Position numbers and translations under genes: made by a program
From: Aurantimonas sp. Leaf443
GTDB lineage: Bacteria; Pseudomonadota; Alphaproteobacteria; Rhizobiales; Rhizobiaceae
Direction: 5' to 3'
NCBI RefSeq assembly: GCF_001425575.1
Contig: NZ_LMRD01000001.1
Location: 64,537-128,536 of the forward strand
Length of the DNA: 64,000 nt
Notes under the pieces: model-generated
What the model saw: the letters and a program-made list of their open reading frames with translations, nothing else
Told to the model about the DNA's origin: nothing
Databases searched by the model: none
In this document: positions 1-7,143 of the stretch, piece by piece
Position numbering within the stretch: position 1 is the first letter of the stretch
Layout of the letters: every line of letters begins with the position of its first letter

Positions 1-99
1 GATGTTGACGTCGGCGGCGGACGCCGCGCCCGTGAGGGCGGTGCCGGCAAGGGCGCCGATCACCAGCGAGCGCAGGGAGCGGGCGAGAAGCGGGGACAT
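1..99 (-). CDS. Exported protein, N-terminal fragment (possible iron ABC transporter substrate-binding protein)
   Basis: Only the first 33 codons lie in the window; the gene runs off the left edge. They read as a Sec signal peptide: basic start (MSPLLARSLRS), hydrophobic core (LVIGALAGTALTG) and an A-S-A signal peptidase I site, with the mature protein beginning near ADVNI. That start resembles ferric-iron ABC transporter periplasmic proteins, and two Irr-like iron boxes lie about 170 bp upstream of the ATG. The export signal is seen; the iron-transport role is inference from the boxes and a five-residue resemblance. Other secreted proteins remain possible. Confidence 0.55.
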   Translation of the reverse strand, partial: MSPLLARSLRSLVIGALAGTALTGAASAADVNI

Positions 100-267
100 C
101 GTCGAGACCTCGAAGCTGCGGGCGAACCCTTGGAACGGGTGGCACGCGGCCGCGGGGCCGGCCGTTGTCGCGCCGGCTCCGCGACAGGTGCCGGGAACGG
201 GCCCTGAATGCCGGGGGCGCAGCCTCCTGGCAAGCCGAAAACGACAAAAGAACAGTCAAATCATATG

Positions 268-300
268 GTTAGAACTGTTCCAATTTTGAACCGTTCTAAA
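268..300. promoter_or_regulatory. Two adjacent Irr/ICE-like iron boxes
   Basis: Two 17-bp imperfect palindromes abut in an AT-rich pocket upstream of the exported protein starting at 99. The right one (284-300) reads TTTTGAA-CCG-TTCTAAA, one base away from a perfect TTTAGAA-N3-TTCTAAA palindrome. The left one (268-284) reads GTTAGAA-CTG-TTCCAAT, with three differences. This shape matches the iron control element bound by Irr in Hyphomicrobiales. They face the minus-strand gene, since the other neighbour ends here. Binding by Irr rather than another Fur-family protein is inferred. Confidence 0.55.
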
Positions 301-332
301 CTGGAGCCGTCCCCTCCGAAATCCCGCCGGCC

Positions 333-3300
333 TCAGTCGGCGAGAACACGTTGGGCGGGAAAGGAAATTTCCACCAGGGTGCCCTCTCCGGGCGAGGAGG
401 AGATGGCGAAGGCGGCACGGTTGGCCTCCGTCAGCGCCTTGGTCAGCGGCAGGCCGAGCCCGGTGCCTTCGCCGCGCCCGCGCTCGCCTGGCCGCACCTG
501 GCGGAAGGGCGTCAGCGCGATCTCGATCTCGCTCTCGGTCATGCCGATGCCGCTGTCGCGCACCCGCATGACCACCGCGCCGTCGTTCGCATAGCTCGTC
601 GAGACGATGATCTGACCGCCGCTGGAGGTGAAGCGGATGGCGTTGGAGACGAGGTTCAGCGCGATCTGCCGGATCGACCGGCGGTCGGCGACGACGGGGG
701 GCACCGAGGAGGGCAGGTTGGAGCGCACGATGACGCGCTCGCGCATGGCCTGGGGCTGCAGCAGCGAGACGGCTTCGGCGATCACGTCGTTCAGGAGCAC
801 GGATTCGAAGGTGAGATCCACCTTGCCCGCCTCGATCTTGGACAGGTCGAGAAGGTCGTTGACGAGATCGAGGAGGTGGTGGCCCGAGCGCTTGATGTCG
901 TCGAGGTATTCCAGGTAGCGCTCCGAGCCGAGCGGGCCGTGGCTCTCGCTCGCCATGACGTCGGCGAAGCCGATGATGGCGTTGAGCGGCGTGCGCAGCT
1001 CATGGCTGATATTGGCGAGGAAGCGCGTCTTCTGCTGGCTCGCCTCCTCGGCCTCGCGTCGGGCGGAGACGAGATCCTGCTCGATCGTCTTCCAGTGCGC
1101 GATGTCGCGGATCACGGCGCAGATGGCGCCGGCATCCGGCAGGCGGCCGAGGGTGAGGGACAGCGGGATGAAGCCGCCCTGCGCCACGCGGCCGATGACC
1201 TCGCGGCCCTCGCCGATGAGACCGGCCACCCCGTCCCGCTTCAGCGTCTCCAGATAGTCGAGCGTGGAACGCTGGCTCTCGTGGGCGAAGAGCGTGACGA
1301 AGGGCCGCCCGGCCGCGTCGTCCGGCTCGATGCCGAAGAGGGAGAGGGCCGAGCCGTTCATGGCGCGGATGCGCCCGGCCGCGTCGAGCAGCACCACGCC
1401 GTCCGTCGCCGTGTCGAGGACGACGCGCAGCTCGGCATTCTCGCGCCGAAGCCGCGCCAGCTCGCCGTCGCCGTCGTTCGAGGGCTCCGGCCGCTCGTCC
1501 TGCGCCTTCGCCGCCTCGGCATCGCCCGCCTCCACGAAGGACATGACGAGGCAGGAGCGCCCGGCGAGCGTCAGGCGCTGGAGATGGGCGCGCACGGGAA
1601 GGGTCTCGTCGTCGGCGCGGCGGATATGCACGATGCCTTCGGTCCCCGGCAGGTCGCTGGTGGCGAAGAGGCGGGCGAGCCCGCCGGTGGCGCCGAGCGC
1701 CTGCGCCTCGTGGCCGGTGAGGGCGCGGAAGCGCGCATTGGCATAGACCAGCGCCTCGCGCACCTGGACCAGGACGGCCAGCGGCATCGTGCCGTAGAGC
1801 GTGTCGAGTTCGGCGACGAGATCGGCCGGCGCGCCGGCTTCCTCCACGCTCTCCTCGGCCTCGCCGGCCTCGGCTGCGGCGGCGTCGCCCGTCGCCTGGG
1901 CCTCGGCCTCGTCCATCGCCCTCACGCGGGCGGCGGCGGCGCGGATCGCCTCCTTCAGTCCCTTGTCCGGGTTCTTCTCGCCGAGCGTGGCCCCGATCGC
2001 CCGGAAGGCGGCCTCTTCCGTGGAGGAAAGCGAGGGCTCGCGACCCCGGCGACGCTCTTCCAGGCGGATCACCTTCTGCGGCGCGTCCTCGCTTTCGGGC
2101 GGCGTCTCGCGCCGGCCGAAGGACACGGGCGCGGCATTGACGCGCGTCAGCGGATCGCCGTCCGCGTCCGCGTCCGCGTCGCTCTCGCCCGGCATGGGCC
2201 CGACATCCTCGAGCGCGAAATCGGCACGGGCGAGATCGAGGCCGAGACCGTCCGGGTCCTCGATCGTCTCGGCGAGGCGCACGATGCCGAAACCGCGGAA
2301 TCCGTCGAAGCTGCGGTCGCGTGCATAGACGGGCAGCGCCGCCAGATCGATGGGCGCCTTGCGGGCGGAATTCTCCACCGGCCAGTAGACGGTGCGCCCG
2401 GACCAGGTGTCGCGGCGCTCCAGAAGCTGCTGCACCTCGCCGTCCGGATCGAGCCCGTAGGCCGAGGCGACTTCGCGGAAACCGAGATCGAGGACGTCGG
2501 CCGAGCGCGGCCCGACGGCGGCGGCAAATTCGGGCGAGAGCGAGCGGAAGCGGCCCTGCTCGTCGATGCGCCAGACGAAGCGCACCGGCGCGCCGTCGAA
2601 GCGCGGGCGGAAGGGAAGCTCGGGTGCCGCGCCCGCCTCGGCCGCAACGGAGCCCGGCGTGTCGTCGGTCTCAAGGGCAGGGGCCTCGGGGGCGGGCGCC
2701 GCGCGCCTGTCCTCGTCGGCGCGCGGAGCACTGTCGTCCGGTGCGATCGGGGCGGGCGCCGGCGCCATGGCGTCGCGGTTCGGCTCCACGTCACGTTGCG
2801 CGTCGCCGCGCAGGAAAGGCGCCTCATCCGGCGTCCCGGCATCGAGGGCGGCCGCCTCTTCGGTGCCGGCCGGCGGTTCGGGGAAGGCCTGCTCGGCCTC
2901 GAGGGCGGGATCGACCGGCGCTGCGACGGCGGCAGGCGCGTCGGCGGGCGTCTCGGTCCCGTCCGCATGCGGCTCGGCCACGACCGGCGCGCCCCAGACC
3001 GAGCACAGGGCCGGCCGCGGGGCGGCGGAAACGAGGGATGCGGCCGGCAAGGCGGCCGGCACGGGCGCCTCCGGCGCGCTCTGCGTGGAGGCGGCATCCG
3101 GCGCCATGTCCTGCGGCGCGCGTTCGTCGGAGGACGCGTGCGTTCCCGGCGCTTCGCCGGTCCGCGCGACCGCCGGGGCGTGCGACGCCTGCCCGGCCGC
3201 GTCGCCTGTCCCGGGCTCGCCCGAAGGCGCCGCCTCCGTCGCCGCGGCGTCCTCCGCCGGCGCGCGCAGGCCGACGGCGCTTTCGAGCCGCGAGTGCCAG

Positions 3301-4151
3301 CGTTCCAGAAGTGCGCCGATGGCGCTGCGGCGCGGTGCGTCCGCCCCGTCCTCGGACCCGCCGAGACTGTCCGCCGCCGCCTCCGCAAGGGCGGCCGGGC
3401 TCGGCGCCTGCGCCTCGGGCGCGGCCTCGATGGCGGCGGCGACATGATCGCCGGCAAGGCGCCAGAAGCGCGCGGCGCGCCCGTCGGCCAGCACGCGCGC
3501 GGCGCGGCGGTCCGCGCCGGCGCGGAAGCCCTCGAGCGCCTCGTCGAGCAGGGCCTCTCCCAGCGTCTCTTCGGGCGAGAGCAGCGCCACGGAAGCGTCC
3601 TTCAGCTCCGCGGCAAGGCGCGCGCGCCCGGCGACGGGATCCTGCGAAGCGGCCCGCAGGTCGGAGGCGAAGGCGAGGGCGAAGGGCGCGCCGTCGATCT
3701 CGATCGTGGAAAGCGCGATCGTCGCGGCCTGGCCGATGGAGCGGCCGGCCCCCGGCAGGAGGGCGCTTGCCGAACCGCTGCGCGAGAAGGCGCGGGAGGC
3801 CGCGCTCAGCTGGCGCAGCGCGGCGCTGGGGCGCGCGACGGCCCCGTCCTGCAGCCCGGGCCCGCCGAGCCCGAGAAGCGCCGCGGCGAGGGGATTGGCG
3901 AAGATCGGCCGCGCCAGATCGGCGCTGAACACGGCGAGAAACGCGCCGGGCCCGTCGCGGTCGGCGACGTCGGCCAGCGACAGGATCTCGAGCGCGTTCG
4001 GCAGGGAAGTCGGCGCCATGCGATGCATCCAGTTCGTCGGGGCGACAGGTCTTGAGGCAGGACGCCGGACCTCCGGCAACAGGCCCGTCTTTACGAATGA
4101 TTCATACTCGCGACAGGCGCACGAATCCAGAACGGCGGCCTGCGAGACCAC
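333..4151 (-). CDS. Large multi-PAS sensor histidine kinase, PdhS/PleC/DivJ-like
   Basis: About 1272 residues. A PAS-like N-terminus (about 50-170) is followed by a long Ala/Glu/Pro-rich, probably disordered stretch (about 260-520). PAS-like blocks follow near 525-640, 780-880 and 910-1020, then a short coiled linker. HisKA carries the phospho-acceptor His in SHELRTPLN near 1050, and a complete HATPase_c has an N box (NLVSNAIRF), DSGIGM and GEGTGLGL. No transmembrane helix or receiver domain is evident, so it is probably cytoplasmic. The kinase core resembles the alphaproteobacterial family that controls DivK/CtrA; that partner is inferred. The catalytic His separates it from DivL. The GTG start at 4151 has an AGGAG six bases upstream; ATGs at 4028 and 4019 are alternatives and begin a more protein-like sequence. 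Confidence 0.85.
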   Translation of the reverse strand: MVSQAAVLDSCACREYESFVKTGLLPEVRRPASRPVAPTNWMHRMAPTSLPNALEILSLADVADRDGPGAFLAVFSADLARPIFANPLAAALLGLGGPGLQDGAVARPSAALRQLSAASRAFSRSGSASALLPGAGRSIGQAATIALSTIEIDGAPFALAFASDLRAASQDPVAGRARLAAELKDASVALLSPEETLGEALLDEALEGFRAGADRRAARVLADGRAARFWRLAGDHVAAAIEAAPEAQAPSPAALAEAAADSLGGSEDGADAPRRSAIGALLERWHSRLESAVGLRAPAEDAAATEAAPSGEPGTGDAAGQASHAPAVARTGEAPGTHASSDERAPQDMAPDAASTQSAPEAPVPAALPAASLVSAAPRPALCSVWGAPVVAEPHADGTETPADAPAAVAAPVDPALEAEQAFPEPPAGTEEAAALDAGTPDEAPFLRGDAQRDVEPNRDAMAPAPAPIAPDDSAPRADEDRRAAPAPEAPALETDDTPGSVAAEAGAAPELPFRPRFDGAPVRFVWRIDEQGRFRSLSPEFAAAVGPRSADVLDLGFREVASAYGLDPDGEVQQLLERRDTWSGRTVYWPVENSARKAPIDLAALPVYARDRSFDGFRGFGIVRLAETIEDPDGLGLDLARADFALEDVGPMPGESDADADADGDPLTRVNAAPVSFGRRETPPESEDAPQKVIRLEERRRGREPSLSSTEEAAFRAIGATLGEKNPDKGLKEAIRAAAARVRAMDEAEAQATGDAAAAEAGEAEESVEEAGAPADLVAELDTLYGTMPLAVLVQVREALVYANARFRALTGHEAQALGATGGLARLFATSDLPGTEGIVHIRRADDETLPVRAHLQRLTLAGRSCLVMSFVEAGDAEAAKAQDERPEPSNDGDGELARLRRENAELRVVLDTATDGVVLLDAAGRIRAMNGSALSLFGIEPDDAAGRPFVTLFAHESQRSTLDYLETLKRDGVAGLIGEGREVIGRVAQGGFIPLSLTLGRLPDAGAICAVIRDIAHWKTIEQDLVSARREAEEASQQKTRFLANISHELRTPLNAIIGFADVMASESHGPLGSERYLEYLDDIKRSGHHLLDLVNDLLDLSKIEAGKVDLTFESVLLNDVIAEAVSLLQPQAMRERVIVRSNLPSSVPPVVADRRSIRQIALNLVSNAIRFTSSGGQIIVSTSYANDGAVVMRVRDSGIGMTESEIEIALTPFRQVRPGERGRGEGTGLGLPLTKALTEANRAAFAISSSPGEGTLVEISFPAQRVLAD

Positions 4152-4227: not shown

Positions 4228-4305
4228 TTGCATTGCACAATGAAAATTGCTAGGTGGTCGGTGTCTGTGATCTTTGCAAAGCCGGGTGCTGCTGCAAGTC
4301 TGCAG
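4228..4305 (+). promoter_or_regulatory. TGC/GCA repeats in phasin leader, possible PhaR operators
   Basis: The AT-rich region upstream of the phasin holds a TGC-N3-GCA palindrome inside TTGCATTGCACAA (4228-4240). A second CTGC-N6-GCAG repeat lies at 4292-4305, just before the ribosome binding site. PhaR, the repressor of phasin genes in alphaproteobacteria, binds TGC-rich inverted repeats of the CTGC-N-GCAG kind. The repeats are seen in the sequence; assignment to PhaR is inference. Confidence 0.35.
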
Positions 4306-4331
4306 GCAAGATCACGCAAGAGGAGGCAAAG

Positions 4332-4793
4332 ATGTCGAATACAGGAAACGATCCGTTCGGTTTCGGTGGCCAGTCGCCGATGATGGGCATGGATCCCTCG
4401 CAGCTCAACGAGACGTTCCGCGCCATGACGCAGAAGTCGATGGAGCAGTCCAAGGAGGCCTACGGCCGGATGAAGGCTGCCGCCGACGAGGCGACGCGTT
4501 CGCTCGAATCGACCATGGAGAACGCCCATCAGGGGTCGCTCCAGCTCTCCAAGAAGGCCATCGACGCCATGCGCGCCAATGCCGAGGCGGGCTTTTCGCA
4601 TCTCGAGAACCTCATGGCCTCGAAGTCCTTCGCCGAAGTGATCGAGAAGCAGACGGCCTACGTGCGCAAGCAGGTCGAGCTCGCCACCGATCAGGTGAAG
4701 GAGATGCAGGCCATCACCCAGTCCGTCGCGCAGGACATGATGCGCCCGGGCAAGGAAGCCTTCCAGAAGGCGGCGGACTCGATGAAGCGCTAA
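4332..4793 (+). CDS. Phasin family protein
   Basis: 153 residues, mostly one long amphipathic helical stretch rich in Ala, Glu, Lys, Met and Gln, which is the Phasin_2 pattern. Phasins coat polyhydroxyalkanoate granules and influence granule size and number. The N-terminus is flexible and Gly/Met-rich (PFGFGGQSPMMGMDP), and the helical body begins near residue 25. The start is fixed by AGGAGG at 4321-4326, five bases before the ATG; an earlier in-frame ATG at 4254 would add a Cys-rich piece without protein-like character. The gene is monocistronic, with a terminator overlapping its stop. No PHA synthase is in the window, so a granule role rests on the family. Confidence 0.9.
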   Translation: MSNTGNDPFGFGGQSPMMGMDPSQLNETFRAMTQKSMEQSKEAYGRMKAAADEATRSLESTMENAHQGSLQLSKKAIDAMRANAEAGFSHLENLMASKSFAEVIEKQTAYVRKQVELATDQVKEMQAITQSVAQDMMRPGKEAFQKAADSMKR

Positions 4794-4968: not shown

Positions 4969-5045
<77 letters not shown>

Positions 5046-5448: not shown

Positions 5449-7143
5449 CTAGAACAGCGAGCCCTGGCCGGGCGCGATGGCCTTGGCGCGGGCGGCGCGG
5501 CGGCGGATGGGGGCGGCGGGCAGGGTCCGGTCGCCGGGCACGCTGCCGAGCGGGGCGTCGCCGTCGGTCGCCACCGCCTCGCGGCGCTGCGTGCGCGTGG
5601 CGGGGTCGTCGTCCGGGCGCCAGTCGGGATTGGCGAACTCCACCTGGAATCGCGTGCCGGGGCCGAGCGCGTCGGCGCGGGTGATCGGCGTGCGGCCGTC
5701 CTCGGCATAGACGATGGCATAGCCGCGTTCGAGCACCTTGCGCGGATCGAGCGTGCCGGCGATGCGCCAGAGACCGCCGAGCGTCTCGCGCCGGCGCTCG
5801 GCGGCGCGCCGCTCCAGCGTCTGGAGGCCCGCGCCGAGCGCGTCGAGGCGCAGGCGCGCGGCCTCGCTGCGGGCGCGGATGATGTGGGGCTGCAGGCCGC
5901 TCGCCGCCTCGTCGTAGCCCCGGCGCAGGCGATGCAGGATGCTGCCGATGCCGCGGGCGGCATCGCTCTCCTGCTGGCGCAGACGCGCGCGGCGCTCGCG
6001 CAGCGCCCCGTCGAGAATGCCCGGCGACAGGCGGCCGGCGCTTTCCGCCAGATGCCGGCGCCGGTCGGACAGCGCCAGCGACAGGCCGCGCGTCAGCCCG
6101 CTCTCGGCCTCGTCGAGGCGTCGGCGCGGCAGGGCGAGCAGCATGTCGGGCGCCGGCAGGGCGCGCGCGGTCGCGGCGAGCGCGCGCGCCTCGCGATCGA
6201 GCCGGCGCGTGACGGCCCCGCCGAGCCGGGCCTCGAGGCCGGCAAGCACGGCCTTCAGTTCGGCCCGCACCGGCACCACGATCTCGGCGGCGCCCGTCGG
6301 CGTCGGCGCGCGCCGGTCGGCGGCATGGTCGAGAAGCGTCCAGTCCGTCTCGTGGCCGACGGCCGAGACGAGCGGGATCGCCGAGGCGGCGGCCGCGCGC
6401 ACCAGCGTCTCGTCGTTGAAGCCCCAGAGATCCTCCAGGCTCCCGCCGCCGCGCGCCACGATGAGGACGTCCGGCCGCGGCACCGGGCCGCCGGGTTCGA
6501 TGGCGTTGAAGCCCTCGATCGCCGCCGTCACCTCCGCCGCGCTCGTCTCGCCCTGCACGCGCACGGGCCAGACGAGGACATGCAGCGGGAAACGGTCGGC
6601 GACGCGGTGCAGGATGTCGCGGATCACGGCGCCGGTCGGCGAGGTGACGACGCCGACCACGTTCGGCAGGTAGGGCAGCGGGCGCTTGCGCGCGGCGGCG
6701 AAGAGGCCTTCGGCCTCGAGTCTCGCCTTGCGCTCGTTGAGGAGCGCCATCAGCGCGCCGGCGCCCGCCGGCTCCAGCGTCTCGATGACGATCTGGTATT
6801 TCGACGAGCCGGGATAGGTCGTGAGCTTGCCCGTCGCGATCACCTCCAGCCCCTCCTCGGGGCGGAAGGGCAGGGCGGCGAAGGCGGTGCGCCAGACGAC
6901 GGCGTCGATGCGCGCCTTGTCGTCCTTCAGGCAGAAATAGGCGTGGCCGGAGGAATGCGGCCCGCGATAGCCCGAGACCTCGCCCCGCACGCGCACATGG
7001 CCGAACTGGTCCTCGATCGTGCGCTTGAGCTTGTTGGAGAGGTCGGAGACCGACAGTTCCAGGACATTGGGCACGCCGCCCTGCGGGACGGCGGCGGCGG
7101 TGCGGGCCGAGAGCGGCGTGCGTCCCCCCCTCGCGCTCACCAT
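5449..7143 (-). CDS. xseA: Exodeoxyribonuclease VII large subunit
   Basis: 564 residues. XseA forms exonuclease VII with several XseB subunits and degrades single-stranded DNA. An N-terminal OB fold (LELSVSDLSNKLK through GEVSGYRG and HAYFCLKDD) precedes the catalytic region with VGVVTSPTGAVIRDI, DVLIVARGGGSLEDL and VSAVGHETD, then a long helical segment and the C-terminal RKVLERGYAIV motif. The last 80 residues form a basic extension. The ATG at 7143 overlaps the end of the LysR gene by 7 bp, implying one transcript. The start could lie slightly downstream, because the first 25 residues are poorly conserved in character. No xseB lies nearby. Confidence 0.93.
   Translation of the reverse strand: MVSARGGRTPLSARTAAAVPQGGVPNVLELSVSDLSNKLKRTIEDQFGHVRVRGEVSGYRGPHSSGHAYFCLKDDKARIDAVVWRTAFAALPFRPEEGLEVIATGKLTTYPGSSKYQIVIETLEPAGAGALMALLNERKARLEAEGLFAAARKRPLPYLPNVVGVVTSPTGAVIRDILHRVADRFPLHVLVWPVRVQGETSAAEVTAAIEGFNAIEPGGPVPRPDVLIVARGGGSLEDLWGFNDETLVRAAAASAIPLVSAVGHETDWTLLDHAADRRAPTPTGAAEIVVPVRAELKAVLAGLEARLGGAVTRRLDREARALAATARALPAPDMLLALPRRRLDEAESGLTRGLSLALSDRRRHLAESAGRLSPGILDGALRERRARLRQQESDAARGIGSILHRLRRGYDEAASGLQPHIIRARSEAARLRLDALGAGLQTLERRAAERRRETLGGLWRIAGTLDPRKVLERGYAIVYAEDGRTPITRADALGPGTRFQVEFANPDWRPDDDPATRTQRREAVATDGDAPLGSVPGDRTLPAAPIRRRAARAKAIAPGQGSLF

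Follow-up and report, generated by a model that had tools for sequence, protein, structure and literature searches.

A predicted Irr operator with two closely spaced boxes upstream of the ferric-iron uptake genes fbpAB in an Aureimonas relative

Background

The iron regulator Irr and its DNA sites, the ICE boxes, are known from alphaproteobacteria. We take the palindrome TTTAGAA-N3-TTCTAAA to be the Irr/ICE box type, as did an earlier reading of the DNA studied here (below, the sequence-only reading). A passage of a 2020 review describes Irr as a repressor or an activator according to the location of the ICE, and states that no Irr crystal structure was available at that time (PMC7762939). Sections of two other papers present Irr mainly as a repressor (PMC3413700, PMC6386902), and one of them reports there that iron genes are still induced by iron limitation when Irr is absent (PMC3413700). 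A second regulon, that of RirA, is associated with IRO boxes (TGA-N9-TCA). One section of a study on S. fredii gives fbpA as a RirA target, with fbpA rising about 95-fold in a rirA mutant (PMC6386902). Ferric iron itself is imported by ABC transporters of the FbpABC/HitABC kind.

The fbpA locus of Aurantimonas sp. Leaf443 resembles each of these systems in part. It has the same type of box as the Irr regulon, the genome encodes Irr, and its iron-storage, Fe-S and rirA genes bear boxes as well. However, fbpA has two boxes at close spacing, whereas most orthologous fbpA loci have one. Like the FbpABC/HitABC importers, the operon encodes FbpA and a permease, but it differs from them in the absence of an adjoining ATPase gene. 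RirA is also encoded, although fbpA differs from the RirA regulon in having no exact IRO box at positions 100-345 of the window. By the window we mean the whole stretch of 64,000 nucleotides that was analysed (C1:64537-128536), in a genome of 3.9 Mb and 13 contigs that is the sole member of its genus in the genome collection.

The locus would thus be an Irr-controlled ferric-iron uptake operon recognised from sequence alone. The fbpAB operator appears to be an ordinary iron-control switch, whose sole unusual part would be a tightly spaced double site that is common to some related genera.

Results and discussion

Two Irr-like boxes upstream of fbpA

Computation confirmed two palindromes of the TTTAGAA-N3-TTCTAAA type at the place where the sequence-only reading had seen them (Table 1). 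They are the only matches to this motif with up to three mismatches in the 64 kb. The mean number expected by chance is 0.05, and none of 100 dinucleotide shuffles contained two such matches.

The centres of the proximal and distal boxes, at 276 and 292, are separated from the fbpA start codon by 177 and 193 bp. They are 16 bp apart, as had been claimed. Two further claims about their geometry were wrong. The boxes had been said to abut exactly, but when taken as 17-mers they have base 284 in common. They had also been expected to permit tandem binding on the same face of the DNA. Since 16 bp corresponds to 1.52 helical turns at 10.5 bp per turn, we rejected a same-face arrangement and place the boxes on opposite faces of the helix.

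Table 1 Features of the fbpA locus and of related loci in Leaf443. Plain numbers are positions in the window; mismatches are counted against TTTAGAA-N3-TTCTAAA
Feature	Position	Strand	Remarks
fbpA, first 33 codons	1..99	-	start codon at 99; signal-peptide-like start, then ADVNI; gene runs on to the left of the window
Promoter-like block CTTG-N20-CAT, putative fbpA promoter	208..234	-	block recurs downstream of the box in relatives
Proximal Irr-like box (nearer fbpA)	268..284	-	ATTGGAACAGTTCTAAC (forward strand GTTAGAACTGTTCCAAT); 3 mismatches; counterpart kept in most Aurantimonas/Aureimonas-type fbpA upstreams
Distal Irr-like box (further from fbpA)	284..300	-	TTTAGAACGGTTCAAAA (forward strand TTTTGAACCGTTCTAAA); 1 mismatch
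PAS sensor kinase gene, PdhS-like	333-4151	-	1272 residues; upstream of fbpA, same direction
Phasin-family gene	4254-4793	+	PF09361
tRNA-His gene	4969-5045	+	follows the phasin-family gene
fbpA, full gene	L021:7590-8636		348 residues
fbpB permease gene	L021:5816-7504		85 bases after fbpA; 562 residues, two PF00528 stretches
NYN-domain frame	L021:5193-5807	+	PF01936; converges on fbpB; in-frame stop
Two Irr-like boxes of the dps-type gene	L022:5635-5651 and 5706-5722		centres 71 bp apart; one a perfect match
irr	L027:1408-1842	-	

The gene facing the boxes and its operon

Extending the sequence to the left of the window gave the whole of the gene that the boxes face. Its product has an N-terminus that looks by eye like a signal peptide, followed by ADVNIYSSRQ. 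The sequence-only reading had called it an exported protein whose ADVNI start was reminiscent of ferric-iron binding proteins, and the likeness proved apt: over nearly its full length, the product matches the PDB entries 1y9u (2.6e-102) and 1q35, an FbpA (1.4e-96). It passes no NCBIfam model cut-off, and the best models, below cut-off, are those for aminoethylphosphonate-binding proteins; the iron assignment therefore relies on the PDB matches. By this homology we take the protein to be FbpA, the periplasmic binding protein for ferric iron. Its closest relatives among those found with genus names are from Aureimonas and are 79-85% identical.

The permease gene fbpB comes next (Table 1). The iron-uptake operon that had been predicted just outside the window is therefore there as far as FbpA and a PF00528 permease are concerned, but no ATPase gene (fbpC) adjoins fbpAB in Leaf443. 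Given that FbpC was not found in the same operon, we use the name fbpAB and not fbpABC. The NYN-domain frame, which converges on fbpB and is broken by a stop, comes next downstream, and after it an AMP-binding enzyme. The same absence is seen in relatives, with no ABC signature downstream of fbpA in any of the 72 orthologous loci for which 4 kb or more of sequence downstream is available. Because the Leaf443 genome has 19 TOBE_2 matches elsewhere, it is possible that an ATPase shared from another place in the genome serves FbpAB. The best of these matches, on the same contig and about 8 kb from fbpB, was rejected as FbpC: it is located beside another permease and by eye resembles a polyamine transporter component.

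Some neighbouring genes may be noted. The NYN-domain frame, with its in-frame stop, may be a pseudogene. The kinase gene upstream of fbpA resembles that of the cell-division kinase PdhS, with a score of 757 bits that is below the model cut-off of 2000. As judged by eye, several Aureimonas loci likewise have the end of a PdhS-like kinase gene before fbpA.

Regulators and further boxes in the genome

Leaf443 encodes three Fur-family proteins. One is Irr, which passes both Irr equivalog models, NF045678 and NF045677 (223.1 bits versus a cut-off of 150, and 206.6 bits versus a cut-off of 170). The protein carries an HHH motif and has no CP dipeptide. The remaining two pass no listed cut-off, and their best matches are Fur and Zur. 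RirA is encoded too, with 215.6 bits versus a cut-off of 193.

A scan of the genome for the Irr motif had been proposed by the sequence-only reading as a check. With up to three mismatches it found 16 places, versus 10 with a reversed pattern, so the weakest matches are unreliable; of the three-mismatch boxes in this genome we use only the proximal fbpA box and one that lies 63 bp before rirA. Five places have at most two mismatches. These are the distal fbpA box, two boxes before a gene for a Dps-type ferritin (55 and 126 bp from the start codon), one before a cysteine desulfurase gene that is followed by sufB, and one at C6:395048. The last, with two mismatches, sits between converging frames and was not counted as a regulatory target. 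The Dps-type protein passes the Pfam Ferritin model, and its score of 65.6 bits is below the NCBIfam Dps cut-off of 114.

Conservation of the box at fbpA

Most relatives of FbpA are encoded downstream of a similar box. Within 500 bp upstream of their genes, a box occurs at 75 of 80 loci if three mismatches are allowed, at 67 with two and at 33 with one, whereas the reversed pattern gives 1, 0 and 0 at the same loci. L095, which has almost no upstream DNA, is scored as a miss in these counts. The fbpA upstream of Aureimonas ureilytica NS365 (L039) has no box.

The reading of the palindromes as probable Irr sites is thus supported by the Irr protein of this genome, the FbpA target, the conserved box and the further boxes at iron genes.

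In many relatives (fbpA upstreams L042-L112) an ATTGA or CTGAT element follows within a few bases of the box. This element lies outside the Irr palindrome and is distinct from the -35 element.

Activation or repression

The mode of regulation depends on where the promoter lies. Of 78 fbpA upstreams (L039 and L095 were left out), 64 have a TTGAC at a distance of 9-90 bp on the downstream side of the box centre, versus 8 with each of the control words GTCAA and CAGTT; in most relatives the box is therefore upstream of the promoter. The distances between TTGAC and the box centre have maxima at 33-34 and 50-56. Were TTGAC the -35 element, most box centres would be roughly at -70 to -90.

A scan of window positions 1-400 with the sigma-70 consensus found no promoter. 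Of 22 Aurantimonas/Aureimonas-type upstreams, Leaf443 included, 16 carry the promoter-like block CTTG-N20-CAT on the downstream side of the box. Some of the 22 are near-copies of one another, and the count leaves out a match at another place in L045 and an additional one in L125. From the position of the block, the two box centres at fbpA are estimated to lie near -78 and -94.

Since the boxes appear to be upstream of the promoter, Irr should activate fbpA in low iron. We consider it likely that together the boxes form an Irr operator of fbpA-fbpB, located upstream of the promoter and activating when iron is low. We infer that Irr binds here, with one dimer on each of two opposite sides of the helix, and that it activates and does not repress. 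When iron is scarce, and hence heme is scarce, heme-free Irr dimers would bind the fbpA boxes, and from this position upstream of the promoter they would most likely activate fbpAB. At dps, suf and rirA, which have a box closer to the start codon, the same Irr would act as a repressor. With ample iron, heme would release Irr from the DNA, and expression of fbpAB would fall. That Irr-like boxes at fbpA are placed upstream of the promoter in many genera would fit activation.

An unlikely alternative is that Irr represses fbpAB, with the true promoter overlapping the boxes and being blocked in low iron, a mode that has been reported for genes of iron storage and heme. The mainly repressive role given to Irr in the sections cited above is consistent with this idea, as is the uncertain position of the promoter in the window, where there is no match to the consensus. 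However, the location of TTGAC in relatives puts the box upstream of the promoter, and a cell that closed its iron uptake when iron is low would work against its own needs.

It is slightly less probable again that RirA is the main iron control of fbpA and that the Irr boxes add little. Besides the RirA gene in Leaf443 and the S. fredii mutant result cited above, this proposal can draw on the occurrence of TGA-N9-TCA before fbpA at 23 of 79 loci, versus 1 of the 79 with the pattern reversed. Yet no exact copy of this sequence was found in the part of the window searched (see Background), while Irr-like boxes are present at nearly all of the 80 loci. Moreover, RirA and Irr can act together. Least probable of the three is that the boxes belong to another regulator, either another Fur-family protein, of which two are encoded, or an unrelated palindrome-binding protein (palindromes of such length suit many repressors), because the same motif precedes other iron genes here and has been conserved at fbpA in many genera, and neither of the two Fur-family proteins passes a listed cut-off.

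The double site in other genomes

Unlike the single box, the pair of boxes is not general, and is seen mainly in Aurantimonas-type relatives. Among the 80 loci, two boxes that are 12-25 bp apart, with up to four mismatches each, occur only in L042 (Aurantimonas) and L045 (Fulvimarina), in both cases at 16 bp. Counterparts of the distal box 16 bp from the proximal one also exist in further genomes beyond these two. The Aureimonas loci with species names have the proximal box alone, and the distal counterpart is absent. The one-box and two-box fbpA loci would offer a natural comparison for how Irr activates transcription. A literature search returned no account that we recognised of a 16-bp pair or of Irr in Aurantimonas.

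We scanned 394 genomes of the family for 16-bp pairs with up to two mismatches, and found 18 sites in 17 genomes, versus 1 in the reversed control. Seventeen loci were fetched, including that of Leaf443; this set comprises every site but the second one of G191. By tblastn, 12 of the 17 pairs are located before FbpA. Two others precede a gene for a rubrerythrin-VIT protein (Pfam), presumably MbfA, and two adjoin a frame resembling a hemin-binding protein (L127 matched Peripla_BP_2, and L124 was judged by eye). No iron gene was recognised at L118.

An exact scan of the 394 genomes with a variable gap found paired boxes in 21, versus 0 in the control. The commonest spacings were 26 bp (8 genomes, 7 from a single genus) and 16 bp (4 genomes). 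By tblastn, five of the 17 new loci match the FbpA (1), Dps (1), IscS/SufB (1) or RirA (2) of Leaf443. A ferritin-like frame is present in L146, and the remaining 11 were judged by eye or are unassigned.

A post hoc phase test for half-turn spacing across 14 genera gave p 0.011, or p 0.097 when the 16-bp cases, which are probably one lineage, were counted only once. A general preference for half-turn spacing between boxes is therefore only suggestive. Tentatively, and with considerable doubt, a fixed Irr pair at a half-integer number of turns (16 bp, or 26 bp in another genus) might be a distinct operator architecture under selection. Two dimers gripping the DNA from opposite sides would then make fbpA respond more sharply, or at another iron threshold, than genes with a single box.

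The 26-bp pairs (L133-L139 and L143) are about 300 bp from a frame that by eye resembles bacterioferritin-associated ferredoxin, for which Pfam gave no match in L133.
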